Below, one piece after another: positions 15,976 through 54,065 of a DNA stretch of 64,000 bases. Each line of letters opens with the position of its first letter. Positions within the stretch are counted from its first letter, which is position 1. A model generated the notes under the pieces. It had not been told where the DNA came from. It made no database searches and was given only the letters and a program-made list of their open reading frames with translations. Position numbers and translations under genes: made by a program. The stretch comes from Chrysaora quinquecirrha (Eukaryota; Cnidaria; Scyphozoa; Semaeostomeae; Pelagiidae), in assembly GCA_014526335.1 (NCBI GenBank), contig JACTAT010000022.1:1246604-1310603 (forward strand), read 5' to 3'.

Positions 15976-18900
15976 ATGAGCGAAGAAAACAGCAACAACA
16001 CTGAGCGAGTTTTAGAACAAATCAAACAGCAACTAACAACATCGATTTTGCTCATTATTCCTCAATTAAAGTCAAAAGTAGTGGGACTTATGGAGTGAGT
16101 CTAATTTGCATTGATGATGACATTGATGTCGACAACGAAGACGTTCAAGGCCTGGATGATATTTCCTTTGGTTCTTTCAAAGCAGACATCGTTGGGATTA
16201 GATATTACAAAGGAAGGGTGAATACAAATGAAATGGTTTCTCTTGTGCGAGAGCCTCATAACCCGTATGACTGCAATGCAATCAAAGTGAACAATGTTTT
16301 TGGTGTTCAAGTTGGGCATATCAAAAGAGAGCAGGCAAAAGTGTTGGCAAGGATTGTTGATAGAAATAGAGCAAGACTTGAAGGGTATGTATGCGGTAAG
16401 AATTTAGTTTAATTGTTCTTAGTTACCTGTAATATTGTAGCTGAACTGTATTTTCATACTGTTCCGAATACATATTGTGCGAGGAGACAGAAAGAACCAG
16501 AAATGAAAAATGGCCGGATTGGAAAGTTTAAAACATACCCACACCCGCAAGATATTATCGAGTGAGGGGGGGGAGAAACTCCTTAGAGGGTTGGGTATTC
16601 ACCTCTGGAGAAGTTCAAGCCCAAGGACGTTCCAGTGTCTAGGTTTGAAAACATGCAAGTTTCTGCCAACGGGTGACTGCTTATTGCAAAGGGCAAATGC
16701 TCATAAAATCTTTCATCTTCATTTCTTCAGAGTTGTCCCATTTGGCGTACAGAACATATACTCAATGCCATGCTATATATCTTTGCTTGGCAAAGAGGCA
16801 GACAAAGATTCAGTTACCACGGAAATGAGGAGAGCTGGATATCAGTTAACGGAAAGACAAGTCAAGAGACCAAAGGGTCATTATGAATCAAGTGGACCCG
16901 GACAGAACATGAACGTGTCTATTTCATCAATGAAAGTGTCTCCACAGGCGGTAAGTTTGATTTTCTCATTCAATTGATTTTTTTTGGTTAATAAGAGATT
17001 AGAAGTGAACTTCACAAAGGACATTATCTGTTATTCATGACAAATATATACAAATATGTATGGTGCTGAGGAAGGCTCAACATAGCTGAAACACAAAAAG
17101 TCAAATGAGAGGAGAGCTTTGGGCTGTATGACTTGGAGAGTTACTTGGTGATTTCATTGAGCTATATAGCTCAGTGGAAACATTGTTGGCTCTATGGTCA
17201 TGCAGTCCAGGTTTGTATCCTATCAATTATGGTACGCTTAGAAATTGTGGCAAATTTTCTAACTATTTTTAAGTGCCTTTAAACTGGACATGCACAATAA
17301 CATCCAAACATGGTAGTGCAGGTCTCACAAATATAGTGAGTATCTGTTGTATAGTCTGCTGCATTATGATGTGATAAATAATTGTTCTTATTCCATGCCA
17401 GATGAAAAAGGAAATGGACAATCTTTTCATGAAGTTGACAGAAAATACCAAGACATCTTCTCAAGAACCTGCTGAGGTATTTTACCATCTTGTGTCACTT
17501 TAACTCAAAACAAAAAGTCATGTAATATCGTTATCAATTATCTCATATAAAATGGTGTAAGAAAGATACACTGTGTTATGTTTCTTGGGGTAAAGGAGCT
17601 TGAAAATAGGGTTTATACAGATTGATGAGGAACCAATCAGATTGCACCATTTCTGGTCCCAGCAAACATATTTTTGGACATCATATAATAATGTAATGTA
17701 CCACAATGTAGCCTAATAATAATCATCATCATCATCATAATCATAATAATAGTGATTTAATTTAAGTGTCAAGGCATTTAGCATTTCTACTAATTGGGGA
17801 CACTGTCAGTTATTACCCAAGAAATCTGGGTACTCATTTACCAACCTCTGAAGGATGGACAGCTTAGTTGACTGCAGGCTTGTGGAAAGTAGTCCAGATG
17901 GGATTCAAACCCACAACCTTAAGATAGTGAGAAGAGGGTCATTGTAACACAGCAATGTAGTTAGTTGTCTTGTAGATGATCCTAACACATTACGAGGCAA
18001 AGTAACTGATTGTAATATGATGTCATTAACCATTTGTCTGTAGCACAAGTTGTTTGTGTTTTTCGTAGGCAATTAAAACCAGTCTTCTTGCACATCAAAA
18101 GCAAGCACTTGCATGGATGATGTCTTGTGAAAATGATGATACTTTACCACCATTCTGGGAGCAAAGAGGCCCTCAAGATTTCTTTAATTCTGCTACTAAT
18201 TTCAGTGCTCCTAAGAAACCAAAAAGCATCAAGGGTGGCATTCTTGCTGATGATATGGGTCTTGGAAAAACATTGCAGATAATTGCTCTGATTATTACCA
18301 ATTTCAAAAATGGTCAGAATCTTGTCACCATTGATAAAACTAAGCCACTCATGCTGAAATCAGAGGTTTGTTTGTTTGTTTGTTTGTTTGTTTGTTTGTT
18401 AGTTTGTTTGTTTGTTCCAGTCTCGTACGATAGCAATCATAGTGCTTCATCGTGTATTCCATTCAACTTTTTAGAGTATATATCCCTTGCAATCTTGCCC
18501 CAATAGTCTCCAATTGTGAAGGTTCTGTGGGGCCTTGGACTTATAAAGCTGGCTTGTAGTGTCAGGATCTCAGCGAGGTCGTGGCTCGAACCCCAGGTAC
18601 GGTAGCGTCACGGCCAGGAACAAACAACGTCTCGATTAGATAACTTAATACTGAGATCCTACTGATTTGCGCTAAATACATCATTTGACCTTCACCTTCA
18701 GTCGCTAGGATCTCATTAATGGCTTAACTAATCGAGACCTTGACCCCGGCTGTGATGCTGCTGTAGCTGAGGCTCGAACGCCGACCTCGCTGAGCTACTG
18801 ATAACACTAGCCAGTTGAATTAAGAGGAGCTTTCAAAGACAAACGTGTCTCAATATACAACATTACCCTTCCTCTTTACGATAAGATTCTGTCTTTTTCT

Positions 18901-21900
18901 TTGTTTTCAGATCCCACAAACACAAAAGAAAAGGAGACGACCTAGCAAGGCAAAATCTGAAAGCTTCATGGAAATACCTGATGGGAGTGAAGGTGAAGAT
19001 GAAGCCAAACTACCTGAATTACCATCGTTCACATCTAAAGATGATCCAGAATTCAAAATTAATGATGAAACATTGACTGAAACAACTCAGACTAGCAGAC
19101 GATCGAAAAGGTCAGTTTAGACTTAAGGGCTAATTACTCCTTCAGCATTTTGGGTGATGACCAAAATTATTGGGACAGCAACCATGCAGACATATTAGCT
19201 GGAAGACCCCCGTCCCCAATTCAATGTGGTGCATGTCGGCAGAAATTGTTTCTTTGATAACATTATTAACAAAACAACATGGTTGCCCTGACCAAACGAT
19301 CAAACATTATTTGTCAAACATTTAAAATATGCTTGCCAGTCACATTGTTTTACCGTTTGGCAACTTCGCAAAACATTGCTCGTCAAATAGTTTTGGCAAT
19401 AGTTTCAAACATTTATTGTAAGGAAAAGCTCAAATGTTTGACCAACACTGTTTTGCCATTTGGCTAGAGTCCTGCTTCTATATTGCACAGAAGCTGGCAA
19501 CAAGTTATAAGGAAAACGATAATTGCGAATGTTTTACCTGAGAAATGTATCTTTGTAGAGCTACAAAAAGGCCAGCTAAGTACACTTTTGATGATGAGGA
19601 TGGCGAGGGTGATGCTGATGCAGGTGAAGCTGAGAACGAAGAAGGGAAAGCATCCAAAAAAGAGAAGACAGAGAAGAAAAAGCGCAGAAAAGGTAAAAGT
19701 GTGAATAACGTTACAATGTGTTTAAGATCATTATACTTCTAATAGATGCCTCAAACAGATTCAATTGATAATCTTTTACGGTAAGACTCTTGCAATTGCG
19801 CATTAAAGGTAGCAATTAAGCACATTCTGCAAAAACAGTCTTATGAAACAAGCTGCAGGTCAACATCAGCATTAATGCTGAAGATTATATTTTAAGACCC
19901 TTTTGTTGTGAATTTCCAGGGACATCGTTGCTATAAATTAGTCAGAATTGAAACGAGAACCTTTCTACCTCTCAGCGAATACTATCGCTTTGCCCTTGTT
20001 GTCATATGATTACCAAAGAGCTCTTCTGTCTGTTCAAAAGAGAATAGTCATTCCAAGTTCGAGGAACTGGTTGTGGAAAGGGCAAATTTATTGAGAAATC
20101 TTCTAGTTTCTTTTTTTTTCATTCACAGATGAAACAAAGCAAGCTCCTCAAGTGATTGAAATTGATGATGCACAGATCCCAGTAAAAGAGACATTTGAGG
20201 TTCAAGAGACTCCTGAAATGATTGAAATCAATGACTCACAAATTCCCGTCGAAGAAACAGTAGAGGTCAATGCATCAGCCGAAGTTAAATCGACGACCCA
20301 GTTGAATTCAGCAGCTGAGACTCAGTTAACAGCTGATGCAATTTCAGAAGTTGAAATAATACCTCAAGTAGTTGCTGCTAAAAGAGGCAATCTAAAACAC
20401 CTCGTCGCAATTCGAAAGCATCACAGATTGCTGCCATGGAGGGGGAAACAGGTATGATTGTTTAACATTTAGAGCGTATTTTGGTGACTTTTGGTTTTAG
20501 GCAGACTCTTTCCACATTCTGAAAACGGTGGACTTAGCAAATAGGGAGTGACAGCCGGGGGGGGGGGGGTGACAGCCTCGTGGTTCGTCGGTACAGAGCT
20601 CCCGGTACACGGTATGTCCGGCTAAAAGCCGGTACAGTATGAACGCAATCTGGTGCACGGCAGAAAGAAAAAAGATTTCTATACAAAAAACAGATTCTGA
20701 AAATGGTTGGCTGATCGGAACAAAGTCGGGATAAATCTTTAAAGTCAAGAAGACGAGTACCAAAATAATACGCTTCTGTAGTCTACCGAAGAGAAGGCGT
20801 CTGCTAAAAACGGATGGTGACAACAAGAGGACTTACTATGCTTTTAAGGTAGCAAGATAATGAATACAGTGAAGACTTTTTAATAGCGTCAACGTCCAGA
20901 CATCCGACACCACGCGACCCGACACGATCAGGACAGGTCTTACACGCTTTTTATTTTATAAAGAGCATACTCCAAGGTCATTAAGTTCTTTATTTTTAGA
21001 CCAATTTTGATTAAATTGTATTACAAATACAAAATACTTGGCCAGAGGCTCCCAACTGTCTTTTTTCTACTGGATAAAAACATTTGACTCAATTGTAATT
21101 TTGCGTCTTTATTTCCTTTTGTAGTTGAAACTTACAAAGGCAAAAGAGCGAAGGCTTCTGGTGCAAGGGCCACACTTATCGTTTGTCCGTTATCTGTCTT
21201 GAGTAACTGGCAGGTACATCTTTTCGTAATTATATCAATAATTCGGTCTATTTTGCTTTCAATCAATTGCTTTTAAATCGACTCAGCACAAAATGTGAAA
21301 CAGTTTAAAAGTTTTAAATTAGTCTCTCAACAATAAATGCGCTTGTTTCTTTGCAAGAAGTCATGTCGAATGCAGTCTTTGCATTGAACACAAAAGTTCC
21401 CATAGATAGGAGAAAGAAAGAAAGAAATAGAGAAGGAGAGGAAGAATAAGGAAGGAAGAAATAGAAAATGAGAGAATAAGAAAGGGAAAGGGGGGAATGA
21501 AAGAAAATGTAAGAAGAATAATTATGCTTTTATCATGCTTGTCAAACAATGTTTTGTGACGTGGCCAATGGTTCAAACATTGTTTGATAAGCGAATTTCA
21601 AATGTTTGACAAACAATGTTTGACAGAATGGCCAAACGTTCAAACATTGTTTGATAAGCAAGTTTCAAATGTTTGACAAACAATGATTTGTGACGTGGCC
21701 AAAGGTTCAAACATTGTTTGATAAGCAAATTTCAAATGTGTGACAAACAATGTTTGACGACATGGCCAAACGTTAAAACATTGTTTGATAAGCGAATTTC
21801 AAATGTTTGACAAACAATGTTTGACGACATGGCCAAACGTTAAAACATTGTTTGAGAAGCGAATTTCAAATGTTTGACAAACAATGTTTGACGACATGGC

Positions 21901-24900
21901 CAAACGTTAAAACATTGTTTGAGAAGCGAATTTCAAATGTTTGACAAACAATGTTTGACGACATGGCCAAACGTTAAAACATTGTTTGAGAAGCGAATTT
22001 CAAATGTGTGACAAACAATGTTTGACAGCATGGCCAAACATCGAAACATTGTTTGGGAAACAAATTTCAAATGTGTGACAAACAATGTTTTATGAGCTGG
22101 CCAAAGGTTCAAACATTGTTTGGGAAGCTAATTTCAAATGTTTGACAAACAATGTTTGGCGAAATGTCCAAACATTGAAACATTGTTTGGGAAACAAATT
22201 TCAAATGTGTGACAAATTTCAAATGTTTGGGAAACAAACAATGTTTGACAAACAATGTTTGGCGAAATGTCCAAACATTGAAACATTGTTTGGGAAACAA
22301 ATTTCAAATGTGTGACAAACAATGTTTGACAGCATGGCCAAACATCGAAACATTGTTTGGGAAACAAATTTCAAATGTGTGACAAACAATGTTTGACAGC
22401 ATGGCCAAACATCGAAACATTGTTTGGGAAACAAATTTCAAATGTGTGACAAACAATGTTTGACAGCATGGCCAAACATCGAAACATTGTTTGGGAAACA
22501 AATTTCAAATGTGTGACAAACAATAGACCCTTTCACAATTAATTATAACAGCGAGGCCGCGAATCTGAAACGAGGCTAACGTTGTTCCAGAAAACCTTAG
22601 CATGAACGCGTGAATGGTGGAAAGGTCTGTGTGGCTATGATTACAAGTAATTATACATTTCACTCGTAAATTTGGTACAGTTCAGCTCTTTTCTTGTCAA
22701 GAACAGGTATTTAGAATGTCTTAGAGCCATAGATATAAAATGGTTAGTGAAAATTCTGTTGCTGTATATGGTATTTCGTGGTGTAGGCTAGGCCGCTCTC
22801 AAGCCTGCCCATTGACTGGTCTTACACCTCGCATGGGGTTTACATGCGCAAAATTTTGTCGAATAAAGCTGAGAAAAGAGAATTTAATTGAAAACGATCA
22901 ATTTTTCTAATAGGAAGATGTTATTTGGTGCATACGCACTTCTAGGGTGGGTTATGGCGTGTCATTAGAGGGATGTTTTGACTAATATGGTACACATGCA
23001 ATAGTGGGAGGGGCTATTATGTGTAGCTGGAGGGGTGTTTTTGCGTTATATGGTGCACATGCATTAGTTGGAGGGGCTATTATGTTAGATTGGAGGGGTG
23101 TTTTTGCCTTATATGGTGCACATGCACTAGTGGGAGGGGCTATTATGTGTAATTGGAGGGGTGTTTTGCCTTATATGGTGCATATGCAATAGTGGGAGGG
23201 GCTATTATGTGTCTTGGATGGTGTGGTTTCTCCTTATATGCTGCACCATAGTACAGTACTGCAGTGCATAGTAACCAGCACACATAGCAACTTGTCCTAG
23301 AAGTGCATATGCATCATTTTAGGCAAAAAAACTACCCTTCCAATGACCTAAAATAGCCCCTCCCACTAATGCATATGCACCATAAAAGGCAAAAATTCCT
23401 CAAATCACACAAAATGACCCACCCCAGAAAAGGGTATGCACAATATAAGGCAAGAGCACCCTTCCAATCACAAATAACAACCCATCCTAGAAGTGTGTAT
23501 GCACCATATAAGGCAAAAACACCCCTCCAATTACACATAATAGCCCCTCCCACTAGTGCATGTGCACCATATAAGGCAAAAACACCCCTCCAATTACACA
23601 TAATAGCCCCTCCCACTAGTGCATGTGCACCATATAAGGCAAAAACACCCCTCCAATTACACATAATAGCCCCTCCCACTAGTGCATGTGCACCATATAA
23701 GGCAAAAACACCCCTCCAATTACACATAATAGCCCCTCCCACTAGTGCATGTGCACCATATAAGGCAAAAACACCCCTCAAATCTAACATAATAGCCCCT
23801 CCCACTAATGCATGTGCATCCCTCTAATGACACGTCATAACCCACCCTAGAAGTGCGTATGCACCAAATAACATCTTCCTATTAGAAAAATTGATCGTTT
23901 TCAATTAAATTCTCTTTTCTCAGCTTTATTCGACAAAATTTTGCGCATGTAAACCCCATGCGAGGTGTAAGACCAGTCAATGGGCAGGCTTGAGAGCGGC
24001 CTAGCCTACACCACGAAATACCATATACAGCAACAGAATTTTCACTAACCATTTTATATCTATGGCTCTAAGACATTCTAAATACCTGTTCTTGACAAGA
24101 AAAGAGCTGAACTGTACCAAATTTACGAGTGAAATGTATAATTACTTGTAATCATAGCCACACAGACCTTTCCACCATTCACGCGTTCATACTAAGGTTT
24201 TCTGGAACAACGTTAGCCTCGTTTCAGATTCGCGGCCTCGCTGTTATAATTAATTGTGAAAGGGTCTATTGTTCAGACTACAAAATGGCTTCGAGTCGTT
24301 CTTGACGAAGGGCATTGCATCAGAAATCCTAATGCACTGCAATCAAAAGCTACGCATGCTCTGAATGCAGAAAGAAGATGGATAGTAACAGGGACACCAA
24401 TACAGAATTCAATGAAGGATCTTTGGTCGCTTATTTGCTTCTTGAAGATAGAGCCATTTATCGATAGACAATGGTGGACAAGGGTTATGGAAAGGCCAAT
24501 TAAACAAGGAGAAAAAGATGCCTTAGTGTAAGTACAAATTGAAAGAGGAGAAGGGGGAAAATGGGGACCCAGAACCGTGAAATTGAGAGCACTTTTAGCT
24601 AAGTTTCTTTTGCTGTAACTATGAAATTTGCCCTGTTCCAACTATTTTTGGCAGGGATTGCAGTTCTCAGTCTTGTATAGCACTTTATTTATCACTGTAT
24701 TTTTTTATTTTTAGCCGCCTACAGCAGCTGATGAAGTGCATAGCGATAAGACGGACAAAAGATCAGAAAATAGATGGAAAGCCAGTAATTGAATTACCAC
24801 CGAAGAATATATATATTAACTACATTGAACTGTCCCCAGAAGAAAGAGATGTTTATCAAGCGCTTGCTGAGAAAGGAAAAACCACCATTGGAAAGTATGT

Positions 24901-27900
24901 TAACGTTTGTATCTATCATTTCATTCCATTTATCACCTCGCTTCATTTCAGACATAGAGAAGGGTGCTACTACTTCTACTTCTTCTACATTATGATTTGA
25001 TGACTCCTTTAAGAAGGCTATGTCAGTGTTTTTTTTCTATGGCAACAAAGCCTAAATCTATATTATCAAAGAATTCTATATACATATGCCATTCATGGCG
25101 GGAAAAGACACAAGGTCATCTGGTCCCCATCATGGTTGACACTTACAATATAACGATTAATTCGAAGGTAATGAAGAAGAAACGAACGAAAAAAAAATAA
25201 AAAAATACAGAATTCAAAGAAATAACAATACAGCGACAATACAACATGGAGACACGTGACAGACAAAAGCCGAAAAAAGGATGCTGCACAGGGTGAATAT
25301 TAGAATGCTAAGAATTTGGGTGGAGCCGCTTAGTTTTTCGATAAATGAAATTGTAGCTTCCAAAATCATTCTGTTTGAGACAATATTTAATTTCTCATCA
25401 CCAAACAACAAGAGGTTGCTCAGCGCCTCATTGTCCAGAACTGAAAGGTTCAATAGTGGGCAATGTTAGTGTTTGAATAGCGAAGCAATTACTGTATACA
25501 CCTTCTCAACTAAGGGCCTCGTTTTCAAAAAAATCGAAAATGAAGTCATTGAGATATTTCGACTTCAAATTCGAATTTAGCACCTTCATTTTAGTGTTGA
25601 GGCAAAAATTTATGCTTCTATTCCTTATGATATTGATTTTATAGGTGTTGAAAATTTTCAATTTATAAAGGATTTGACTGTGAAAAATCGCTATGGGGTG
25701 AAACTTTGCACCCTCGGTCATTTGTTAATCTGATTTGTAGATTTGTCTTTTTAGGTACATGAAGGCTGGTACACTGCTGAATAATTATGGTGAAGTATTG
25801 GTGATTCTGACAAGATTACGACAGCTGTGTTGCCATCCTAAATTATGTACTGCTGCCCTCGAAGCTGCTGCTAAAGAAGGTATTCAGACTCCTTTCTTAA
25901 GTTTACCTCCCCCTTCCCCCTTAGAGCACTTAATCATATTTTGCAAGGGGCGTCCTGGCAAAGGACAAAGGAACGAAAGAAAAAGAGAAAGTCCATCTTA
26001 TGTCGAGTTTTATTGCTTAGCAGTAAACAGGCTAATGAAGAACCACATTACTTTCTAGCCGTCGAGAGTTCAACACCAGAAGAATTAAGAAAGAAATTAA
26101 CAGCCATGATAGCAATGGTTTTATCTTCCGGCGTCGATGAAGAGTGCTCCATTTGCCTTGATTCGCTAAACCACCCGGTTATTACTCATTGTGCCCATAT
26201 ATACTGCAGAAAATGCATTGAAAATGTCATTGGGTTAAGCGGTGAATACGGTTCTCGATGTCCGCTTTGCCGTGGTCAGATCGCCCTGGATAAACTGGTT
26301 GAACCGCCCGCTGATCAAGAAGACGAGAACGATTATGTTGATGCTAATCAATGGAACTCAAGTGCAAAGGTTTAGATTTAGATTTATACTCTCTGTTCTT
26401 CTTTATTCAGCCCCCCTCTTTCTATTAACCCCTCCCCCATCGTTTGCTCAGTAATTCTTCTGAAAGCTTCAAACTTTTGCACAAAGCCAAAATGTTTGAC
26501 GAGCAATGTTTTGTGATGTGACCAAACGATGTTGCTATACATTTTGTTTAACTTCAAATTGCTTGACATTGCTTTACAAGCATTTTTTTACGACGTGGAC
26601 AAAGGAGGGAGAACATTCTGTTTGACATGCATATTTCAAATATTTGACAAAGTTTCGTTGATCGTAGGTGCTGTGGCGTCGTGGTGTAATCCAGCTGACT
26701 CGTGGTGTCATAAGCTCAGTGTGGTCAGGGTTTCGAGCCCAGCCACGGTAGCGTCACGGCGAGGGTCGAGGTCTCGATTAGTTAACCTACTACTGAGATC
26801 CTAGTGACTGGCGCTAAAACACCATTTCACCTTCACCGTATGGCCAGAACTTTATATTCATCATTACTTCTTTCTATACAGGTCGATGCATTGATGCTTG
26901 CTCTTGAAAAGCAACGCCAAACGGATCCTTCTGTGAAATGCCTCGTCGTCTCACAATTCACGAAGTTCCTCAATCTTCTCAAGCATCCTCTAGAAGGAAG
27001 AGGGTTTCATTTCGTAACACTCGATGGTAGCATGTCACAAGAAAAGAGAGCTAATGCGATCAGAAGTTTCTCTGATATAAGACCAGGATCTCCCACCGTC
27101 TTTCTAATCTCTTTAAAGGCTGGTGGAGTTGGATTAAACCTTTCTGCAGCGACCAAAGTATACCTTATGGACCCAGTAAGTCTTAATTTGTATCTCTTTA
27201 CAGAAGCAAAGCCAAGGGGGGGGGCACGGGAGGTTCCCCCAGATCATCGCCAGGTTTTTAAAAAGGCAAATTTGATGTAAAAGTGTAGCAGAGAATGACA
27301 TGGTATATTTTGTTCTAAAAACCACGACCTAATTTTCATTGACCATGCCCTTTTGCCCTTCAAATATTGCGTGTCTGGTTACGCCACTCTCTTTTTACTT
27401 ATATTCGGCCTTTTAGGTTCTGGCCAAGTGATCAAACATTGATTTTCAAACATTTGAAATTTGCTCATCAAGTTATGTTTAAACGTTTGGCTGCGTCACG
27501 AAACATTGCTTGACATGTCAATCCTTAGCAATGTTTTTGAAAAACGCCAAAACTCCAAATTAAATACTCCAAAATTGAATACTCCGAAATTTTTTCTGCT
27601 TGTTAAAAGCAAAACATGTTTGAAAAGCAATGTTTTGTAGCGTGGCCAAACAGTAAAACATTTGCTTCACAAGCAAATTCCAGATGTGTTGATTAAACAA
27701 GATTTTTTTCACTTTGTTTTTGAAAAGCTTGAAAACATTTTTTGTAGTTCAAAGGAATATAACTAATCGCAGAAGTAGAATATACCCAACTTTCTGGAAC
27801 TATGCGCCAACTTGTTGCCGCTGCCTGTGAACTCATTGCCAGAGGCCAGAGTGCTAGTGTCGACTAATCAGTTACCATAAATTAGTACAAAAAACAGGCC

Positions 27901-29023
27901 TTTTAGCAATCAGCTACTAGTTTTGACTGTGTGCAATGTCGACATAAGACTGATATTAAAGTATTGAAGCTTATTTACGGTTACATAATGTTTAAAGTTA
28001 TTAAACATACTTCTGTCCCCGTTCAGGCTTGGAATCCAGCTGCCGAAGATCAATGTTTTGACCGATGCCATAGACTGGGACAAACCAAAGCAGTTGACGT
28101 TTTCAAGGTAGGAATTATGCTTTCAACTGAGAGGTAAATCTCCCTCTGGTCTAAATTCTTGATCTGACCTCACTAGTTCCCTAGCTTAGGGGCTGAAATG
28201 TAGCAAATCTGTTGTCACTTGGTTCCAATGACATTGTCTTGGCATAAGTCTGAAACCAAGACAAAGGTGACACTGTATCACAAACAACTAAGGGTGCATT
28301 TTTGGGGGCCTTTTTCTGTGTTTTCTTTTTTCTGGAGACTTCCGAGGGATCAAAAGGCCGTTCTTCGGGACAACTCTCGGGAAAATCCGAGACTTTGGAG
28401 GCTCCAGACTCTCCTGGCTCGAAGATATCGCAATCTTCGCAGAGGAATTGTTACCAAATCAACTTCTCTAAAGTCTCCCGTTTTCCGAGAAAGTGCGTTT
28501 TTGGCGTCTGAAATCGGAAGCCTCCGAAGTCTAATTTTTTAAGAATTCAAAAACGATTAAGTCCATGAAGCATGCACTCTAAGGCCTGGGCCAAACGATC
28601 AAACATTGTTTGTTAAACATTTGAAATTTGCTCGTCAAAACACAATGTCTGGCCGTTGTTTGACCATATTGCAAAACATTGCACGTCAAACATTTTGCTT
28701 GATGCAACCATAAAATGTTTTTGAAGGCTTCAAAAACATTGTTGAGCGAATTCTGTTCGTCAAGCAATGTTTATTACCTGGTCAAACGGTCAAACATTGC
28801 TTGCAAAGCAATTTCAAAATGTTTGACAAACAATGTTTGATCGTTTGGCCACGACCTAATTCAGCCACTCTGTTTCTAGTTTGTTGTGAAAAATTCGATC
28901 GAGGAAAGAATGCTTGATATGCAAGAGAAGAAGAGAAAACTTATGACTGGTGCATTTGCTAAACAGACAGCTGAAGTGCGACGTCAGCAACGAATCAATG
29001 ACGTCACAGTTCTAATGAACTAA
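15976..29023 (+). CDS. HLTF: Helicase-like transcription factor HLTF (HIRAN-SNF2-RING), one internal exon block missing
   Basis: DNA translocase/E3 ligase acting in post-replication repair and fork reversal. Exons: start to 16384, 16731-16950, 17402-17476, 18069-18365, 18911-19110, 19559-19692, 20129-20451, 21125-21213, 24277-24527, 24715-24894, 25755-25879, 26059-26369, 26882-27175, 28027-28107, 28880-29023. Visible parts are the HIRAN domain (GIRYYKGRVNTNEMVSLVRE, NPYDCNAIKV), Walker A (ADDMGLGKTL), LIVCPLSVLSNW, DEGH, TGTPIQNS, the RING (CSICLDSL...HCAHIYC...CPLC), helicase motif V (LKAGGVGLNLS) and motif VI (CHRLGQ). About 60 residues expected between SNW and WLRVVLDEGH are absent; the flanking junctions are both phase 0. 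Exon 7 (323 nt) is 1 nt short for its phases, with the shift at A-runs 20380-20397. The start is uncertain: the ATG at 15976 is in a different frame from the HIRAN exon. Confidence 0.93.
17155..17240 (+). repeat. tRNA-like SINE fragment
   Basis: TAGCTCAGTGG resembles a pol III A box, and AGGTTTGTATCC about 45 nt downstream resembles a B box. It does not fold as a full tRNA by eye, so it is probably a tRNA-derived SINE head in an HLTF intron. Confidence 0.45.
17780..17965 (-). repeat. tRNA-derived SINE (minus strand)
   Basis: On the minus strand a GGGTTTGAATCCC B box is followed by a SINE-like body. Text similar to TACTCATTTACC/GAGTACCCAG recurs near 35515. It lies in the HLTF intron before exon 4. 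Confidence 0.45.
18366..18416 (+). repeat. (TTTG)n microsatellite at a splice donor
   Basis: A perfect tetranucleotide run begins at the GT of the exon 18069-18365 donor, so the donor itself is part of the repeat (GAG|GTTTGTTTG). Length change could affect splicing of the HLTF Walker A exon. Confidence 0.85.
18548..18830. repeat. Two tRNA-derived SINE copies, tail to tail
   Basis: 18548-18700 reads TGGCTTGTAGTGTCAG...GTGGCTCGAACCCCAGG...GGTAGCGTCACGGCCAGG. 18700-18830 is the same family in reverse orientation (CTCGAACGCC, ACCTCGCTGAGCTACTGA). The B-box-like GGCTCGAACCCC is clear. Further copies lie at 26668-26845 and 63672-63860. Confidence 0.65.
19285..19472. mobile_element. Palindromic MITE, family A (HLTF intron)
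   Basis: Begins ACCAAACGATCAAACATT and ends GCCATTTGGCTAGAG. The interior contains TACCGTTTGGCAACTTCGC. Short degraded copy of the dispersed family. Confidence 0.65.
21540..22520. repeat. 67-bp satellite array derived from MITE family A
   Basis: About 14 head-to-tail units with a 67-bp period (the phrase GACGACATGGCCAAACG recurs at 21756, 21823 and 21890). Each unit combines TTTCAAATGTTTGACAAAC, AATGTTTGACGACATGGCC and AAACATTGTTTGATAAGCG. These are the same modules as the internal part of the dispersed palindromic MITE. It lies in the HLTF intron where conserved exons are missing. Immediately upstream (21400-21510) is a GA-rich purine tract. Confidence 0.9.
22526..24266. mobile_element. 1.74-kb foldback transposon with about 450-bp inverted arms
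   Basis: The left arm from 22526 (GACCCTTTCACAATTAATTA) to about 22985 is nearly identical to the reverse complement of about 23815-24266. It is flanked by TA on both sides (22524-22525, 24267-24268). Inside the arms lie opposed tandem arrays of a 63-bp unit containing TAATAGCCCCTCCCACTAGT and GCACCATATAAGGC: about 3 copies at 22985-23220 in one orientation and about 6 at 23330-23815 in the other. Because 63 is a multiple of 3 the array stays open in several frames, but the peptides are repeats without sense. No transposase, so it is non-autonomous. Confidence 0.92.
26488..26660. mobile_element. Palindromic MITE, family A (degraded)
   Basis: Contains AAAATGTTTGACGAGCAATG and TGTGATGTGACCAAACGATG modules of the dispersed family, in an HLTF intron. 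Confidence 0.5.
26668..26845 (+). repeat. tRNA-derived SINE copy
   Basis: GTAATCCAGCTGACTCGTGG, GGGTTTCGAGCCCAGCC (B box), GGTAGCGTCACGGC and TACTGAGATCCTAGTGACTG match the family at 18548 and 63672. It ends 36 bp before the HLTF exon at 26882. Confidence 0.7.
27210..27390. mobile_element. Fragment of the CAGTGGCGTAGCC-type element
   Basis: AGCCAAGGGGGGGGCACGGG at the left and GTCTGGTTACGCCACTC at the right match the ends seen at 10222-11332. No coding. HLTF intron. Confidence 0.5.
27412..27700. mobile_element. Palindromic MITE, family A (HLTF intron)
   Basis: TCTGGCCAAGTGATCAAACA at the left, and internal modules AAACGTTTGGCTGCGTCACG and GTAGCGTGGCCAAACAG. The right end is degraded. Confidence 0.6.
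28578..28860. mobile_element. Palindromic MITE, family A (well-preserved copy)
   Basis: Left end GGCCTGGGCCAAACGATC, AAACATTGTTTGTTAAACAT. Right end ATGTTTGACAAACAATGTTT followed by GATCGTTTGGCCACGACC. The terminal 40 nt are inverted copies. One of the best templates for a family consensus. Confidence 0.8.
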
Positions 29024-29157: not shown

Positions 29158-29333
29158 AAGGCGTTGGCCAAACAATCAAACATTGTTGGTCAAACATTTG
29201 AGATTTGCTTTATTAGCAATGTTTGACCGTTAGGCCACGTCACAAGAAATTGCTCAATAATCAGTATTGCTTTGTAATGTTTTTTGAAAGCTTGAAAAAC
29301 ATTTTCTGCCCGTCACAAGCAAAAGATGATTAA
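29158..29333. mobile_element. Palindromic MITE, family A
   Basis: GTTGGCCAAACAATCAAACA at the left and an internal AATGTTTGACCGTTAGGCC module. First of three adjacent copies. Confidence 0.6.
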
Positions 29334-31739: not shown

Positions 31740-32800
31740 AAGACAGTCGTTATCCCTCAATGAACATTGCCCGTTTATTAAAGGATCGAAACAAAGCCTT
31801 GTCCCCAAAAAACATTTCCCGTTAATTAGAATATGGATACAAATTCTGTTGCCCTGCAACGACTATTGCCCGTTTATTAAAGAATGGAAACAAAGCCTGT
31901 ACTTCCAACAAACTTTCCCCGTTTATTAAAAGATTGAATGGCACTTGTTACCCCTCAATGAATATTGCCCGTTTATCAAAGGGTGGAAACAAAGCCTTTA
32001 CCCCCAAACAAACATTCCCCGTATTAGAAGATGGATAAAACTCCTGTTACCCCGCAACGAATATTGCCCGTTTATCTAAAGCATGGAAACAAAGCCTTTA
32101 TCTCCAACAAACATACCCCGTTTATTAATAGATTGAAAGACACTTGTTACCCCTCAAGGAATATTGCCCGTTTATTAAAGGATGGAAACAAAGCCTGTAC
32201 TTCCAACAAACTTTCCCCGTTTATTAATAGATTGAAAGACACTTGTTACCCCTCAAGGAATATTGCCCGTTTATCAAAGGGTGGAAACAAAGCCTTTACT
32301 CCCAACAAACAGTCCCAGTTCATTAGAAGATTGCCAGTCACTTGTCACCCCTCAACGAATATTGCCCGTCTATTAACGGATGGCAACACAGCCTTTACCC
32401 CTAACAAGTATTCCCCGCTTATCAACAGATTGAAAGACACTTGTTACCCCTCAACGAATATTTTCCGTTTATTAAAGGATTGAAACAGAGTCCACCCCCA
32501 ACAGACTTTCCCTGTTTATCGAAGGATTGGAACACAACTTGTTACCCCTCACAGAATATTGCCCGTTTTTTAAAGGATGGAAACAAAGCCTTTACTCCCA
32601 CCAAACATTCCCCGTTTATTAAAAGATTTCAAGACACTTGTTACCCCTCAACCAATATTGCCCGTTTATTAAAGGATGGAAACACAGCCTTTAACCCTAA
32701 CAAGCATTCCCCGTTTATCAAAAGATCGCAGGACACTTGTTGCCCCTGAACGAATACTATCCGCTCATTAAAAGATGGAAACAAAGGCTTTACCCCCAAC
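31740..32800. repeat. Roughly 99-bp tandem repeat (dimer of about 50-bp half units)
   Basis: Around 10 units. Each contains ATATTGCCCGTTTATTAAAG, GGATGGAAACAAAGCCTTTA and CATTCCCCGTTTATTAAAAG. The shared CCCGTTTATTAA shows the unit is a diverged dimer. Spacing of the GGAAACAAAGCC phrase is 99-100. As 99 is divisible by 3, open frames run through it, but the peptide is only a repeat. Confidence 0.85.
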
Positions 32801-33445
32801 AGATAACACACCTACATAGTTATGCTGTAGATTCTGGGTTGTACGTCGTAGGTCGTCGGTTCACCGGAAAACATAGCTGCATACAGAGGGGGGCTTTGGG
32901 GGGTATCAAAACCCGAAAACCCGGAAGAAAATTGGGACAAACCCGAAAACCCGGATGACCTTAGTTTCGACAACTGTTTTTAGAAGTTTACCCATGGATA
33001 TCCTTTTTCAGGTTGAAAACCCGAAAACCTGCACATTTTTACTACAATACCCGAAACCCGGACTAGAAGAATGGCAAAACCCGTTGCCCGTTAAATAAAC
33101 TTGACACCTAGGTACATACTCGAATTACCTTATCCGTAAAGTGCTCAACTGCAATGCAAGGTTTTGGATACTAATTACTTCGTACTACCCTAGCTACAAT
33201 AACAATTCAGATACTTTTATACCTTATTCTGCTCTCCAATTTCGATATGGTTTTGCTGAAACATTGTTGAACTGATAATATAATGTCTGCTCTCAAGAAA
33301 GAAAAGAAATTGAAGATATTCCATGCTGTATGCTAAGCAACTCTGGCATTTTGCCAAAGTTGCATGTGCTTCTTGCGCCCATTTGGTTAATTTTCAGGGT
33401 GGAGCAATTCATTGGGATTGGAGAATCTGGTACACCTTGTCATAA

Positions 33446-37100: not shown

Positions 37101-40100
37101 ATCATGCCTGACTTCCTCTATTTTGTCTCATATTTGATTGGTCTTTACCTCTTTCGGATTCAAGAGAGTGAAGGATTCTATGCATTAATGGAAAAGGTCT
37201 GTTTAATTTTTGAGTACTGCAAAACTTATGTGTAGACAGAAAGAGTTCGTTTTCTCATTTGAAGAAGCTGGCTGTTCTTAAGTTTTTGCCTTTTCTGAGC
37301 CTGAAATGTTCTTATTCTGTTCTTAATTCCTCGGTTACTTAGACAGTAATACTTTTCAGTGAATGTCAGGAGTGGTACTAGATTTGTGAGAAAATGCAGC
37401 ATGGTTGTCTATTTTTTGTTCGCTTGCATTTTACTGTCTTTCTTTCATATTAAGATGATATTCCTAGGGCTTATGAAAAGGCCAGTCTCAGCTTGTTTTT
37501 AATTTGCTCTTAATATCTGGGCAACATTCAGGCTCGTATTCGTATAAAATTGGTCTTATAAAAAAAGCGTGTAGTTTAGTATATTGCTCTATTTTTTAAG
37601 CTTTGAGTTTAATTGATTGAAGAAAGTAATTTTCAGCAATATTTGAGAGATCTTATTGTAGAAACAATAACAGTTACTGTAATTCATGGATACGACCAGT
37701 ACAAGGTCCCAAGCCAGTTACTTCTGGCTTTGTAAAACTGTATGTTTGAGCTAATAATAACATTTCTTATTTATTAGGTATATCTACAAAGTACAAACCC
37801 GCAGCAGATAACACGAACGTTAAGGTAAAATTCACTTAATATATAAATTGTTTAGTGTTGGCTATGACATAGTGCTGAAGACAAATTTTGATTAACATAA
37901 AATTATCATTCAGTAATCAGAATGAAAGCCTGAGGAGTTTAATTAATTGTATTTTGAATCTCTTTGCTCCGATGGGATTATTAGTGGAACAGTTTACATG
38001 TCTCAATGAACTCTAGAGCTATGTCGACAGGAGTCTTCCACCCCTAGTAGGGTCAACCATCCCAAACAGGTCGAAAAGTAGAGAGCAGATGAACATGATT
38101 CAACTGGCCCTCCGGGTTATGGGTTGGGCTAAAGCCTAATAACGCATTCCGAGAAAACATGCTATTAGAGAAACCAAATACAATTCATTAGGACCACGAG
38201 ACAGGATAGCCTGTCCTCCTGGCAAGGGTCAAAGCCGAAGGGACGCCTCTGGGCCGACTGACGCACAATGGAGAAAGAAAGAGAAGAAAGAGGTGGGTTG
38301 AGAGGTTGAGATGATGGACCGTAACAAGATAAACTACTGCCGACCCGGGGTAGTGGTGTAGCACTAATGAGGCCTAATGTGCCGCCAAACCTCGAAGTTG
38401 ATAGGCATTTCGAAATTTCTTGCTTTCAGAACTTAATTTCTTGAAATTTTCTCTTCCGTAGATTCTATCTATATTTTGGCTTATGTTGGTTGCTCTGTAG
38501 CGCTGGTTTATCAATTTATTTTCATTACGTCTTCGGAATGCATCTTACCACTGGCCTATCCAATGATAAACCATTGTAAGTATCTTCTCAATTTACTAGC
38601 CCTGACCCTTGTTAAACTTGTCGCCAACAACGTCGCAACATGTAGCCTGTTTTTTCGCACTGGTGACGCAACGCACCGCATTGTTTTTGCAGGTTTTTCT
38701 GAAAATTGTCTACAATGCTTGTCAAAAGTCTTGGAAAACTTGCACTATTCTTACTCATGTATGAGCAGAAAAAGTCCTCCCCCCCCCCCCTCAAACAATG
38801 TTGATTTTCTATGGTTTGGAATATCCCACGAGAATCCACAATACATCTCGCGAAAGCTCAGACTTTACGAGAGCAAAATAACATTTTTTTGGGGGAAGGG
38901 GGTCGATTTTCTGTATTTCCCAGCAAGAAATGGAAGAGGAGTCGTATTTGTTTAAAAACTACGGGGGTGTTCCAAGGACTTTTGGCAGGCATTGTAGGAC
39001 TAATTCTTCTTCCCGTGCAAGTTGATTGTCGCACCAGTTCACCACAGCCATTTTGTCGCAGCGTGTAGCCATCTCAGGATTTCTCATATCATAACAGGAC
39101 ATTTTCAGGAGTGTCTCGTCGCTATAGAAGGGAAAAGCCGCGGGTACACGTGCGACGTTTTTCTTGGAATGACAACGCGACACAATCCTTAGGATGTCCT
39201 GTCATGAAAACTACTGAGGTGGCTACACGCTGCGACAAAAATGTTGTGACAGAAGTTCTGCTACAATCGACTTGTGTGATAAGAAGAATGAGTCCTAGAA
39301 AATTTCCACGAAAAGGCGCAAAAACAATTCAATGTGGTTTGAATGCGTCGACAATTCAAAAAACCTGCTACACGCTGGCGACATGCAAAAACGTGTCACA
39401 AAAAGGTCAAGCAAATCAATGTTCTCCGACCGTTTTTCCTAAGATCGCAGAACATTTTATTCGAAAAAGTATCCCTGGCTACACGTGCAACTCTTTTTGA
39501 CAATTTTTTAACATGTTCTGTCGCCGTTTCAAGCGAAAAGTTGCACGTGTAGCGGCGCCTTAAAGAACCGCACCTGTAGCCGCGGCTTAAAGAACCGCAC
39601 GTGTAGCCGCGGCTTAAAGAGCCGCACGTGTAGCCGCGGCTTAAAGAACGGCACCTGTAGCCGCGGCTTAAAGAACCGCACGTGTAGCCGCGGCTTAAAG
39701 AACCGCACGTGTAGCCGCGGCTTAAAGAACCGCACGTGTAGCCGCGGCTTAAAGAACCGCACGTGTAGCCGCGGCTTAAAGAGCCGCACGTGTAGCCGCG
39801 GCTTCAGAGGATGTATATTATTTAATCTTTTCTTTTTTCCTAACAGTGCTCAATATGGATTTGCGGCTACATTGGTGATTGCAGAATGTGCTGCCAATTG
39901 TGTAATTGTATCTGTGATAATCAGTCATGCTGGACAGTGTCAATTACTCAAATATTATATAGAAGGAATTATGAATAGATTGGAGGAGAAAAGCACTGAA
40001 CTTAGATATATTATGAAGGTGAGAATTCATTTTCATGCCTTAGTAATCTCTCTCTCTCTTTCTGTTTTTGGTATAGGTGTTGTAAGTCCCCCTCAGAAAG

Positions 40101-46238: not shown

Positions 46239-47669
46239 TCATTGTATGACACATTTTAGTTTAGTGTCTTCCGTTGTTTCACTTATTTCTTCATTGACAA
46301 GTAAATCCTTGTATCTTGCAAGCTCCTCAGCTCTTGTCATTAGCTTGTCAACTTCTTTACGGATACGAGTGTGCAGTTGATCAGGCTGCGATGTTGACAT
46401 TATCTTCAAATACAATTCCACTGCTTTTTCATAATGCTCCAGTGCTATACCATATTTTTGTTCATCATCAAATTTTTCTGCTAATTGACTATGCTTATAA
46501 GCTTGCTCAATCTGAGGCACATCTGTGATTTTACCTTCTAATGAATGCTGTTTTGTAAGTGTGCCTTTTGATCTTGATTGAAGCTTTTTAGAATGCTTCA
46601 ATTGTTCTGCCCTGTTTATATACTGCTTGACTTTCTCCCTGATTGCTTCTTTTCGTACTGGGTTTCTTTCATATTCAATAGCAGGCATGAAGAACTCTAA
46701 AGCTTTGCAATAATTCATCAATGCCTCTGTCGACTTGCCAGCTGAATCTAACTGCACAGCTTGTGACACAATCCCAACTGCCTTATCCAAGCATTCCACA
46801 GTAGGTGCATGGACCAGATCAATAAACTCATGGTTAAAAAAATCCTCAAAAGATATCCTCCTCTGTGGATCTCTCTGCAACAGATGTGTCAACAAATCAT
46901 GACACTGGGGGGACAAAGGGGGGTCATTTGGGATGACCATAGGATCTTTTGACAATATCTTCATCTCCAGCTCCTCATATGTCTTTGATGCAAATGGGGC
47001 ATACCCAAATAAGGTTTCATGGAGAATTACCCCAACTGACCAGAGATCAACAGATGCATCATAGCTATCAGAGCAAAACATCTCGACAGCCATGTACAAA
47101 GGGCTTCCACGTAAGTTATCACGCCCTTCTTTTCCAAGAAGATGCTGAGCAAAACCAAAATCGCCAACTTTAAGAATTGGATCAACTTTAGAGAAAAGTA
47201 ATAAATTCTGCGGTTTTAAATCCATATGAGCTATGTTCTTCTGATTTATGTAAAACAACGCAAGTGACAATTGCCTAAGAAACTTTCTTGCTATCCTCTC
47301 AGGGAGTTTCTTGTATTTTCGCAAAAACATCGACAGATCACCGCCGCTACAATACTCCAGAACAAGAAAGACATTTTGACTATCCCACTGAAAATCTTTT
47401 AGTTTCACAATATGTTCGTGAGTGATTCCTTTCAGTATTTCAATTTCTCGAATCAGGTTTTCACCTGAACTTTTGCTCAGGGTTCTTCTGTCAATACATT
47501 TTACTGCAACTGTCTCTCGATTATTCCCTTTTCTGTATCCTTTAAAAACTGTAGCGTATGTTCCTTTGCCAAGTTTTTCACAGAGGACAAAGTCATTCAT
47601 TCGAGGCGGTGCATATTGACTGTTTACTCTCCTAAGGGAAGAGAAAGGCCTGTTTCGATTGTCCGCCAT
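46239..47669 (-). CDS. ULK3: ULK3 serine/threonine kinase
   Basis: ULK3 phosphorylates GLI factors in Hedgehog signalling and ESCRT-III in the abscission checkpoint. Single uninterrupted coding exon, 476 residues (human 472). Kinase domain about residues 27-283: LGKGTYATVFKGY (P-loop), VAVKCID (catalytic Lys), HMDLKPQN (catalytic loop), GDFGFAQ (DFG), RGSPLYM, DLWSVGVILHE. Two MIT-like helical regions follow: about 290-380 (VSQAVQLDSAGKSTEALMNYCKALEFF) and about 395-465 (HSQLAEKFDDEQKYGIALEHYEKAVELYL). The HRD Arg is Met here; human ULK3 has Leu in the same place. The usual APE is AVE (MAVEMF), an unusual change. MADNRNRP at 47669 is the first in-frame Met. It faces the CFAP97D1-like gene across 616 bp. 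Confidence 0.95.
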   Translation of the reverse strand: MADNRNRPFSSLRRVNSQYAPPRMNDFVLCEKLGKGTYATVFKGYRKGNNRETVAVKCIDRRTLSKSSGENLIREIEILKGITHEHIVKLKDFQWDSQNVFLVLEYCSGGDLSMFLRKYKKLPERIARKFLRQLSLALFYINQKNIAHMDLKPQNLLLFSKVDPILKVGDFGFAQHLLGKEGRDNLRGSPLYMAVEMFCSDSYDASVDLWSVGVILHETLFGYAPFASKTYEELEMKILSKDPMVIPNDPPLSPQCHDLLTHLLQRDPQRRISFEDFFNHEFIDLVHAPTVECLDKAVGIVSQAVQLDSAGKSTEALMNYCKALEFFMPAIEYERNPVRKEAIREKVKQYINRAEQLKHSKKLQSRSKGTLTKQHSLEGKITDVPQIEQAYKHSQLAEKFDDEQKYGIALEHYEKAVELYLKIMSTSQPDQLHTRIRKEVDKLMTRAEELARYKDLLVNEEISETTEDTKLKCVIQ

Positions 47670-50950: not shown

Positions 50951-52736
50951 TGACTGTCAGCTTTTAAATGAGAATTTAGACTTATATTTTGTCGTATTAT
51001 TGAACATTTTCTTTTATAAATAATGGACTTAATAGTATGGTTAATTTTTTGTTGAACGAATTATAGGGTATTTAACTTGCACGAATTACTTTATATACTA
51101 GACTACTGTTAAACAGTTCTGCGTTTTTATTGATGTTTAAACGGAGGAAAACAAAACGTTTTTAATTTATTTTTGCCTCTCCCAGACCCACGGGGATCTC
51201 CCTCTCTGGTAGTTCTGCAATTTCACAAAATTTGAAAGAATTTACATAGTCTTGTTTGGTAATTTTACTTTCCTCTATCTTGTAGGGTCGCAGTACAACA
51301 GCAGTGTCGTGGACTGGTGTAATACATTCCTGGCCAAAACCCCTATTTCGAGAGGTAATTTAGAGTTCTCTTATTAAAATTCTAAGTAACATTCTCGCCC
51401 TATCGCGGTATTATACATGGTTAACATTAACAACCTATGCTTAGCTTATTATGACAAGCCTTTGATATTTATTGGCGCAAAGTTTTGGGAAAAGACCGTC
51501 CCCCATCATCAGGCAATGAGAAATATGATATGAAATATGGTCAGAAATAGCCTTGATAAGTTCGAATATATTTATTGTGCCTTCCCTCAGTTTATGGCTG
51601 GACCCCCTACGTCAATGAATCGGTTTTTGCCGTTCTTATAAGAACGAGAAGCAGAGTCGTTGAACTTTGAACTATTGACTATTTGAAGTTTTCGTTTTCT
51701 GTTTGGTGTGGTTGTAATCTGTCCTTAAGACCTCCCCCTCTTTTAGTCTTCGCATCATGTTGCTCTCCTTTCTCGCAACTCCATCCGAAGTAAGTCGATT
51801 CGCTCTTTTCTCATATTCCCGTCGAACGTGTCCATCCGTGTGATATCCAGAACCAGTTTGCTTGTATTGTCGTAGTAAAAGTTATGATAATTGTCTATAT
51901 TGTGAGGCGCAAGCAAAACATCATTTATGCAAGGAAAGCAATCATCGCAATAAGAGCATGTTCAACGATTTAAATCAATGGAATTTACGGCAAGTTATAC
52001 GACATTCCCAAGGACTGAATTGCGCCTTGAATCTACCCTTTTTGGCATCGACACGCGTATCCCAAGGGCTATACCTTTTACACGAGATTCCTTTGGAAAT
52101 ACGCGGATTTTTGGGGATTTCCTTGAAGTCAATGGATTCCGAGGACCTGCGCCTTGAATTCCTCTGACTCTTTTACAACTGGGGACTTGATACGATACGC
52201 ATCTTGGTCACAGTACACTTTTGCCGACTTCCGCGGAGTTTTCCCCCTTTCGCTCCTTCAATCGCTCTAGTATGTTTACATCTCAAATTGTCTCACTACA
52301 AATTATAATCCTATTCGCTGAATAAAAACTTGAAATAATACAACAGAAATTTTCCCATGCATACCACAGCACTATTTTGGATATCTTAAGACTAACACTC
52401 CACAACATATAACATAAGTTTTTAAAAGGTGAAATCAAGCAAATCTGAGATCCGACTAATCCCCGACTGATGAGAATGGATTTATCCGCTAAAGAAAAAA
52501 GATGTTGCGCGTCCACATTGTATAAAGTCTAAAGCTTATTTTGAAAGTTTTGGGAGCATCACATGAATCGAATTTGAAGCTTTGTCATGCTTTAGTGGCG
52601 GTTTTCTTAGGTCATAGGAGTCCAGTTTAGAAGCAAAAGATTTGGGAAGCTATAGTGACAACGAGGTCTTCATTTAGTATACGCCTGCTGTTCTCAATTT
52701 TGTGCAGCTATTGCTCTTTGCTCTTCTAGTTCTCCG
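50951..52736. other. Spacer between CFAP97D1-like and BTB genes
   Basis: 3' UTR of the upstream gene, then a dispersed-repeat fragment around 51440-51590 (TATTATGACAAGCCTTTGAT ... CCTTGATAAGTTCGAATATA) shared with 40480-40560 and in part with 34430 and 60720. No supported gene. Confidence 0.5.
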
Positions 52737-54065
52737 ATGCATAGAGTAATAGGCAAGTTCAGTGATGATCCATCTGTCGACTGGCAAGCAGCACGATCTA
52801 CAGTGAAAGAAAGAATCTCCTACTTGTATAAGAACGAATCTATGAGCGATGTCGCCTTTGTTGTCAAAGGAAGCAGAGTCCCAGTACACAAATTTGTTCT
52901 TTCGACCAGCAGTTCCGTGTTTTATGCCATGTTTAATGGTTCTTTAGCTGAAAGTGGAGCAGAAATCGAGATCGCAGATTGTGAGAGCATTGACTGCCTT
53001 CTAGAGTTTCTTAAGTTTATATACACGGATGAGATCTCACTGAATTGGGATAATTCTTTTAATATATTATATCTTGCAAAGAAATACATGATCCCATCAC
53101 TGGTGAGGATGTGTTGTGATTATTTAACGAAATCGTTGACTAAAGAGAACGTCTTGGCTGTTTTGCAACAGTCTGTGAAGTTCGATGAGCAAGATTTGCT
53201 AACACGTTGCTTGGAGTTCATACATCCTGTTATTTCTGATGTCGTCAAAATGGAAGCCTTCCTTTATCTTGATTTACACACTTTAAAAATCATCTTAAAG
53301 GAAGATAACCTTCAAATTCCAGAGATTGGTCTATTTATTGCCGTTAAAAACTGGTGTGAGAATAAGATCCTCAGGCGAAAAATGACTGATAATGATGAAT
53401 CAAAACGCAAGGTCATTGCTGATGCAATCAATTTGATTCGTTTCCCTTGCATATCAGCGCAAGACTTTGCGACACATTGTGTATTTTCAGGACTGTTAAC
53501 ATTGGAACAAATTCGAGATCTGTTTTACTTGATGGTATCCCAGCCTGCTGATCACACACGTGAAGTACTTCAACGTTTACCATTCTCAGCTAAGAAGAGA
53601 ATAGTGTGCCCCGCAATGATGTCATTGAATCGATTATCCTTAGGACGTGTGATGCAGAATTGGTCTTACAAAGGAGCAGCCGATGCCCTCGATTTTACAG
53701 TAAACAAACGAATCAATCTATGTGGGATTAGCATCTTTGGCGACCCGGTCCTTCAGCATGTTGACATCTCCTTGAATACCGGAGAGTGGATTATCCGACC
53801 GGAACTGAGCATCGGAATGCCCGACTCCGGACCCGTTGAAGGCTCATACCGTGTTATGTTTGGTCATCCGATCCGTATATTACCATTTAAACCCCATACT
53901 TTGATTGCTATTGTGAAAAGCCCCCAGTCGAAATTTGCAAAATACAACACAACAACGTTTAATTGTGATTATGTTGTTTTTACGTTCAATTCAAGTAATG
54001 AATCTGGGAATGGCACAAGCTCAACAAGGGGACAGTTCCCTGAGTTCCTTTATAAACTTGCTTGA
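52737..54065 (+). CDS. BTB-BACK-PHR domain protein (BTBD1/2/3/6-like), intronless
   Basis: Probable Cullin-3 substrate adaptor. 442 residues in one exon. BTB about 30-140 (MSDVAFVVKGSRVPVHKFVLSTSSSVFYAMF, then FLKFIYTDEISL); BACK about 145-260 (LTKENVLAVLQQSVKFDEQDL, then FIAVKNWCE); PHR-like beta domain from about 300 to the end (CGISIFGDP, LNTGEWIIRPEL, GSYRVMFGHPIRILPFKPHT). This order matches the BTBD1/2/3/6 group; the exact orthologue cannot be told by eye. The first Met gives MHRVIGKFSDDPSVDWQ just before the BTB domain, shorter than vertebrate BTBD3/6 N termini. Neighbouring genes are unrelated. Confidence 0.92.
   Translation: MHRVIGKFSDDPSVDWQAARSTVKERISYLYKNESMSDVAFVVKGSRVPVHKFVLSTSSSVFYAMFNGSLAESGAEIEIADCESIDCLLEFLKFIYTDEISLNWDNSFNILYLAKKYMIPSLVRMCCDYLTKSLTKENVLAVLQQSVKFDEQDLLTRCLEFIHPVISDVVKMEAFLYLDLHTLKIILKEDNLQIPEIGLFIAVKNWCENKILRRKMTDNDESKRKVIADAINLIRFPCISAQDFATHCVFSGLLTLEQIRDLFYLMVSQPADHTREVLQRLPFSAKKRIVCPAMMSLNRLSLGRVMQNWSYKGAADALDFTVNKRINLCGISIFGDPVLQHVDISLNTGEWIIRPELSIGMPDSGPVEGSYRVMFGHPIRILPFKPHTLIAIVKSPQSKFAKYNTTTFNCDYVVFTFNSSNESGNGTSSTRGQFPEFLYKLA

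Follow-up and report, generated by a model that had tools for sequence, protein, structure and literature searches.

The stretch of DNA studied here, called the window, covers 64,000 nucleotides of the scyphozoan Chrysaora quinquecirrha (contig JACTAT010000022.1; C168:1246604-1310603 in an assembly of 328 Mb and 740 contigs). A gene for HLTF occupies 15976..29023 of its plus strand, and a conserved block of the SNF2 ATPase core is absent from it. The place where this block is expected, between exon 8 and a shortened exon 9, is taken up by a 67-bp tandem array and a copy of a foldback transposon. An earlier reading of the same sequence (the initial annotation) had pointed out this gap.

HLTF/SMARCA3 is a Rad5-like SNF2 ATPase with HIRAN and RING domains. 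The same domains are found in the window gene: in a Pfam scan of the joined exons, with one X at a frame slip, HIRAN, SNF2, RING and helicase C are all present in one protein, in this order. The SNF2 match consists of two stretches, the better of which begins at profile position 124 of 290, and no complete SNF2 ATPase core is found between SNW and DEGH. Homologues were drawn from a set of 120 listed out of 5859 found, with P0001 as the closest full homologue among those listed. In a tree of 16 rows and 635 columns, the window HLTF is sister to P0001 (support 100/99) on a branch of 0.17, and both lie inside a 97/98 group with P0002, P0003 and P0007. Its identity to any species-named protein among the listed homologues is at most 61%. 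The gene is thus placed among animal HLTF and can be regarded as an orthologue, which differs from HLTF/SMARCA3 by the loss of about 54 residues between SNW and KWLRVVLDEGH.

The exon borders follow the GT/AG rule, and borders and phases are consistent apart from three places, namely the start, which is unclear, exon 7, where the frame slips by one base, and the missing block. The HIRAN frame has no in-frame start codon at 15976-16060, and the ATG at 15976 lies in a different frame, so that the gene probably has an additional slip of one base or a first exon that went unseen. The slip in exon 7 (20129..20451, plus strand) lies near 20388, in the vicinity of short runs of A and of G, and is absent from the initial annotation. 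Exon 8 (21125..21213, plus strand) ends with ..LSVLSNWQ in phase 0 and is followed by a GT donor. The next coding sequence, the remnant of exon 9 (24277..24527, plus strand), starts with TTKWLRVVLDEGH, also in phase 0. Both borders had been read in the same way before.

Between SNWQ (21213) and TTKW (24277), the block is missing. A pattern gave the distance between SNW and KWLRV in 96 homologues. It is 60 residues in 74 of them, 58 in 12, 59 in five and 61 in two, and lengths of 57, 66 and 22 residues occur in one homologue each. The other 24 of the 120 fall outside the pattern, including P0024, P0029, P0032 and P0046, which have no block, and P0054, which has no LDEGH. The block is fully missing in only those four of the 120 listed homologues and partly in P0104; most of these five are isoforms or predicted proteins.

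Searches for the block gave nothing in its place. When taken from 114 of the 120 homologues and compared by tblastn with the whole window, it produced only noise (best E-value 0.011, through stop codons), and the same queries against 21114-24400 gave nothing credible (best E-value 0.23). As a positive control, the next 60 residues of all 119 homologues queried were located in exon 9; the remaining one of the 120, which has no LDEGH, was excluded. Sliding pieces of P0001, each of 48 amino acids, matched HLTF exons in 88 of 101 cases, and the 13 misses comprise ten pieces of a variable linker and three of the block. A 68-residue query with a relative's block, run against the whole assembly with the best candidates scored and some stretches reading N, had a single match, at 50% identity (E-value 2.2e-6), to an exon of a second HLTF-like gene on contig C415. 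The nearest control for this genome search is the recovery of HLTF pieces of 30-60 amino acids on C415 at 38-77% identity. A BLAST search of plasmids with exon 9 had no match, which is uninformative here.

The second HLTF-like gene (G000:C415:1965759-1983094, minus strand; L002-L006) contains the block as one exon. Its order is SNWT, a 49-codon exon DQFEQHVDPG...DFRQ, and then EHSPLHKI...KWLRV, with a one-base slip in an A run right before KWLRV. This gene forms a long branch (1.07) in the 16-row tree and is a distant, fast-evolving paralogue, whose place in the tree is unsure. A foreign origin of contig C415 was considered and set aside. Indeed, 40 kb of C415 give 22 blastn matches with the window at an E-value of 1e-8 or better, and because of these shared dispersed repeats C415 is treated as part of the same genome.

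In relatives, the block is a single 48-codon exon, DEISNHVWPG...SK (open reading frames (ORFs) P0263 and P0266), which belongs to the SNF2 ATPase core and includes the DIVLTTY segment. Intron positions in the relatives were read by the analyst as the places where the ORFs leave homology. Exon 9 begins about nine codons before the W in six ORFs (P0244, P0245, P0246, P0251, P0252 and P0262), for instance with GKSPLKEVKW (P0245), GRSPLLTVKW (P0244), HESALMQTKW (P0246) and GKSPLANTLW (P0251). P0241, the most similar, reads NSPLITTKW, and its exon begins nearer 11 codons before W. The SNWQ border of exon 8 is common to the C415 paralogue, and vertebrate skipping isoforms indicate the same border. 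On this comparison, the ancestral layout is exon 8, one exon of 48-49 codons, and an exon 9 starting about nine codons before W.

Since the relatives and the C415 gene start exon 9 about nine codons before W, position 24277 is a break point and no inherited exon border. Three of these nine or so codons are kept in the window and about six are gone; with the 48-codon exon, the total loss is about 54 codons compared with P0001. The initial annotation had estimated about 60 missing residues and had remarked that skipping would stay in frame but remove essential ATPase sequence. The absence itself holds, while the size is smaller and 24277 cannot be taken as an inherited exon start; a clean in-frame skip is the wrong picture, as exon 9 itself is broken, at the end of the element.

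The 67-bp array and the foldback indeed make up most of the interval, as had been described, but a remainder of intron 8 and 10 bp next to exon 9 are also present. The remainder (21214..21534, plus strand) contains a short GA-rich repeat at 21410-21461. It is followed by the tandem array (21535..22523), with about 15 units at 67 bp spacing and an irregular junction at 22199-22301. At its right end the array is cut mid-unit, against the foldback. The foldback copy (22526..24266) is bordered by TA on the left (22524..22525) and on the right (24267..24268), both read directly in the sequence. Both ends of the element are intact; the left one abuts the satellite, and 10 bp separate the right one from the truncated exon 9. 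Between the right TA and the exon remnant lie the 8 bp TTGTTCAG (24269..24276, plus strand), which may be a weak acceptor, or a remnant of exon or satellite; the TA border 8 bp before the exon and the weakness of the acceptor had both been recognised correctly. The pyrimidine fraction at -20..-5 is 0.44, the lowest of the 14 acceptors of HLTF (the other 13 range from 0.50 to 0.94), and the matrix score is the second-lowest of 14. In frame, the 10 bp would translate as (I)VQ. At the V position 116 of 119 homologues have L, which makes it doubtful that the 10 bp are native coding sequence.

Degenerate relatives of the 67-bp unit were seen by eye at 19260-19470, 26480-26640, 27420-27720, 28580-28860 and 29160-29300, dispersed in several HLTF introns and 3' of the gene. 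The unit itself seems to have arisen by amplification of part of a palindromic dispersed repeat.

The foldback copy has perfect terminal inverted repeats of 450 bp (22526-22975 and 23817-24266). The arms are 100% identical over this length, or over 457 bp when TA and five flanking bases are included; a comparison giving 448/450 ran two bases past the perfect arm. With such identity, the insertion is young. The interior of the window copy consists of 63-bp tandem repeats in inverted orientation, and the longest ORFs (163 and 156 amino acids) are translations of these inner repeats. No transposase domain was found in these two ORFs by Pfam; no autonomous partner was searched for. One of them had no Pfam match at all, and a borderline match of the other to a phage tail family (28.3 bits, with no stretch passing alone) was rejected as chance similarity of a repetitive translation.

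The arm, searched against the assembly with the best 40 of 61 candidates scored, gave at least 43 rows, 40 of them longer than 200 bp plus three short pieces. Identity to the query is 88-100% for 39 of the 40 long matches listed and 76% for the remaining one. Grouped by hand, they form at least 25 places including the window, 16 of which have two arms, two of these being partial. Arm-to-arm identity in ten copies is 97.6-99.8% of aligned bases for nine and 302/331 for one rearranged copy; two loci in this comparison have one end only.

The ends of the family are conserved. At each of the 31 distinct ends that match a tip pattern not itself containing TA, the tip is preceded by TA. At the 29 ends outside the window, TA is preceded by A in all 29, by AA in 25, by CAA in 12 and by AACAA in none, and the site preference is AA-TA-TT. 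The five extra matching bases outside TA in the window copy were rejected as part of the element, given that AACAA is found before TA at none of the 29 other ends. The target-site duplication has a fixed size, TA; a short constant tip beyond this duplication is conceivable, TA being self-complementary and preceded by A at every end. Both window ends read CAA|TA, and hence both junctions look like true transposon ends and not like random joins. A long-read foldback artefact, in which a read is joined to its own reverse strand at one place, was likewise rejected, as the same ends recur at unrelated places. With its long terminal inverted repeats, conserved ends, many dispersed copies and, in the window copy, inner tandem repeats, the foldback is a member of a young TA-targeting transposon family.

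FB is a foldback transposon of a like kind, and transposon-associated exon deletions and loss-of-function alleles are known as a kind. As in those deletions, an intact element stands at the seam in a gene; in the present case, known from one assembled allele, such an event is presumed. Galileo is described, in an excerpt of its literature, as another foldback transposon of this sort. The closest parallel in structure is Tetris of Drosophila virilis. As the available excerpt (PMC4079207) reports, its long inverted repeats are unique in their outer part and tandemly repeated on the inside, a conserved coding capacity is lacking, and copies vary in length. The window family shares these traits, with an outer part of about 450 bp and inner units of 63 bp. 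Tetris, which is classed as a Mutator-type foldback, has a target duplication of 8-10 bp according to the same excerpt, compared with the 2 bp of TA in the window family. A Mutator-type duplication of 8-10 bp was not seen, as paired flanks compared by eye repeat only TA. Foldbacks with inner tandem repeats are already known, and it is the TA duplication that sets this family apart.

Other genes and repeats of the window bear on the quality of the sequence. WDR24 lies on the minus strand (14998-12617) as one exon, 76-78% identical to its nearest homologues (best match 78%), with frame slips. The frame shifts by one base at 14351, next to a short run of G, and two bases are lacking near 12783-12770 compared with P0121 and P0122, which makes three slips by the simplest reading; they are probably consensus errors. 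In two relatives, HLTF and WDR24 ORFs are found on contigs of equal size (P0128/P0246, 1,234,503 bp; P0126/P0266, 48,541 bp), and this pairing makes the locus look orthologous. A kinase gene with MIT domains (46239-47669, minus strand), presumably ULK3-like, and a BTB-BACK-PHR gene (52659-54062, plus strand) are each single ORFs, open throughout. Further tandem arrays are found at 31740-32801 (99-bp units, 10.7 copies) and 39543-39804 (27-bp units, 9.7 copies).

The slip in exon 7 was first considered as pseudogene decay. This was dropped, as the conserved WDR24 and the C415 gene slip likewise. The slips at short base runs in all three genes resemble unpolished long-read errors and are no proof of decay. 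In an excerpt on long-read-only bacterial assemblies, homopolymer-length errors are the commonest residue (PMC8812927). The multi-megabase contigs and the slips together suggest that the sequencing data are long reads. In addition, the sizes of contigs C324, C313, C279, C308 and C362 of G000 are exact multiples of 500 bp, as if they had been cut on a fixed grid in scaffolding.

One locus of canonical HLTF was found. The DNA of exons 9-10 has one full-length genomic match, the window itself, and the other 39 listed rows are a repeat of about 110 bp in intron 9. This dispersed repeat (24553-24660) has at least 39 other genomic matches. A C-terminal query of 461 amino acids gave 35 rows, seven on C168 (77-98% identity), seven on C415 (38-77%) and 21 elsewhere (29-47%). 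No second allele or haplotig of canonical HLTF was found when the assembly was searched with these two queries.

To the left of the element stands satellite and not the rest of exon 9. DNA has therefore been either lost or skipped in the assembly, with one edge at the element. The likeliest readings of the case are a broken allele and an assembly shortcut, not a new type of gene. The alternative of loss-of-function allele or assembly collapse, as posed by the initial annotation, is still live on both sides; what has been added is that the exon was not found elsewhere, that no second copy was found, and that the element belongs to a real transposon family.

A recent structural lesion that is truly in the animal's DNA is favoured, with a probability of roughly 0.52. 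One whole SNF2-core exon, the flanking intron and the first codons of exon 9 would have been lost. The right edge of the loss would lie at the foldback's right end or at most 10 bp from it, and the left edge would be the 67-bp satellite of intron 8. The element would be the most likely cause, through one of two routes: either two foldback copies recombined, the first lying in the satellite and the second in or beside exon 9, or an adjacent deletion started from one end of a single copy. As the rest of HLTF is conserved and its branch is short, any loss would be recent. An ATPase core without about 54 residues makes a loss-of-function HLTF allele the most likely product.

Several points weigh against a lesion of this kind. 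The support comes from the assembly sequence, and the one-base slips in HLTF exon 7, WDR24 and the C415 gene mean that this sequence is unfinished. The TA duplication is too short to separate one insertion from two recombined copies, and simple insertion of the element alone does not account for the loss. Moreover, the 10 bp fit neither the exon 9 of relatives well nor a strong acceptor. They match the satellite at six of ten positions (counted by eye), which would fit a deletion preceding the element.

The serious rival is an assembly shortcut, in which the exon really lies between near-identical copies of the foldback or stretches of satellite, and what they enclose was dropped when the outer flanks were joined by the assembler. 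This explanation is tentative and falls short of even odds. It draws on the high-identity repeats at the break and on the fact that HLTF is otherwise conserved and slow-evolving, with the locus found only once in the assembly. It is also kept live by the slips of one base, typical of long reads, that several genes show, and chimeric and foldback read artefacts are documented, as an excerpt of PMC12870357 shows. However, the array (about 1 kb) and the element (1.7 kb) are short relative to the long reads suggested by the multi-megabase contigs, and the two-armed copies at 16 of at least 25 places imply that the assembler passed such elements. In addition, the right junction lies at most 10 bp from the truncated exon 9, so that a collapse of intronic repeats would need a second copy in or beside this exon.

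Within the probability given to a real lesion, a share falls to a different order of events, which is rather unlikely. A satellite-driven loss may first have brought the array and exon 9 together, with the foldback inserting later at a preferred CAATATTG site on the seam. The joined flanks do read as a preferred site, and the partial satellite match of the right flank agrees with it, but the element must then have landed on the seam by chance.

Very unlikely is a lesion that is real and tolerated, with TTGTTCAG as the new acceptor of an in-frame HLTF that has no block but retains its non-ATPase functions (HIRAN, RING). The end of exon 8 and the start at 24277 are both in phase 0, the other exons are conserved, and the same genome has a second HLTF-like gene with the block. 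Nevertheless, this gene is distant and fast-evolving, the acceptor is among the poorest of the gene on both measures given above, the block connects two conserved parts of the SNF2 fold, and homologues without it are as rare as described. That the exon has moved elsewhere in the genome or been captured by another copy of the element is highly improbable, as nothing was found in its favour and the paralogue exon was the sole match, among the best candidates scored, to the relative's block.

The structural lesion in the animal's DNA, as favoured here, also has a stronger version, which is unlikely: the young TA-targeting foldback may delete neighbouring DNA on moving or recombining and may have removed the exon of the only canonical HLTF, with a distant paralogue remaining. 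If this were true, the species, or a common allele in it, would be without a working canonical HLTF. If the lesion is not real, the locus would be a worked example of the disappearance of a conserved exon at a hairpin repeat in an assembly; it would also caution against calling gene loss at HLTF. If it is real, the locus would provide a natural HLTF-null allele in an invertebrate, together with a clean case of a foldback at an exon deletion.

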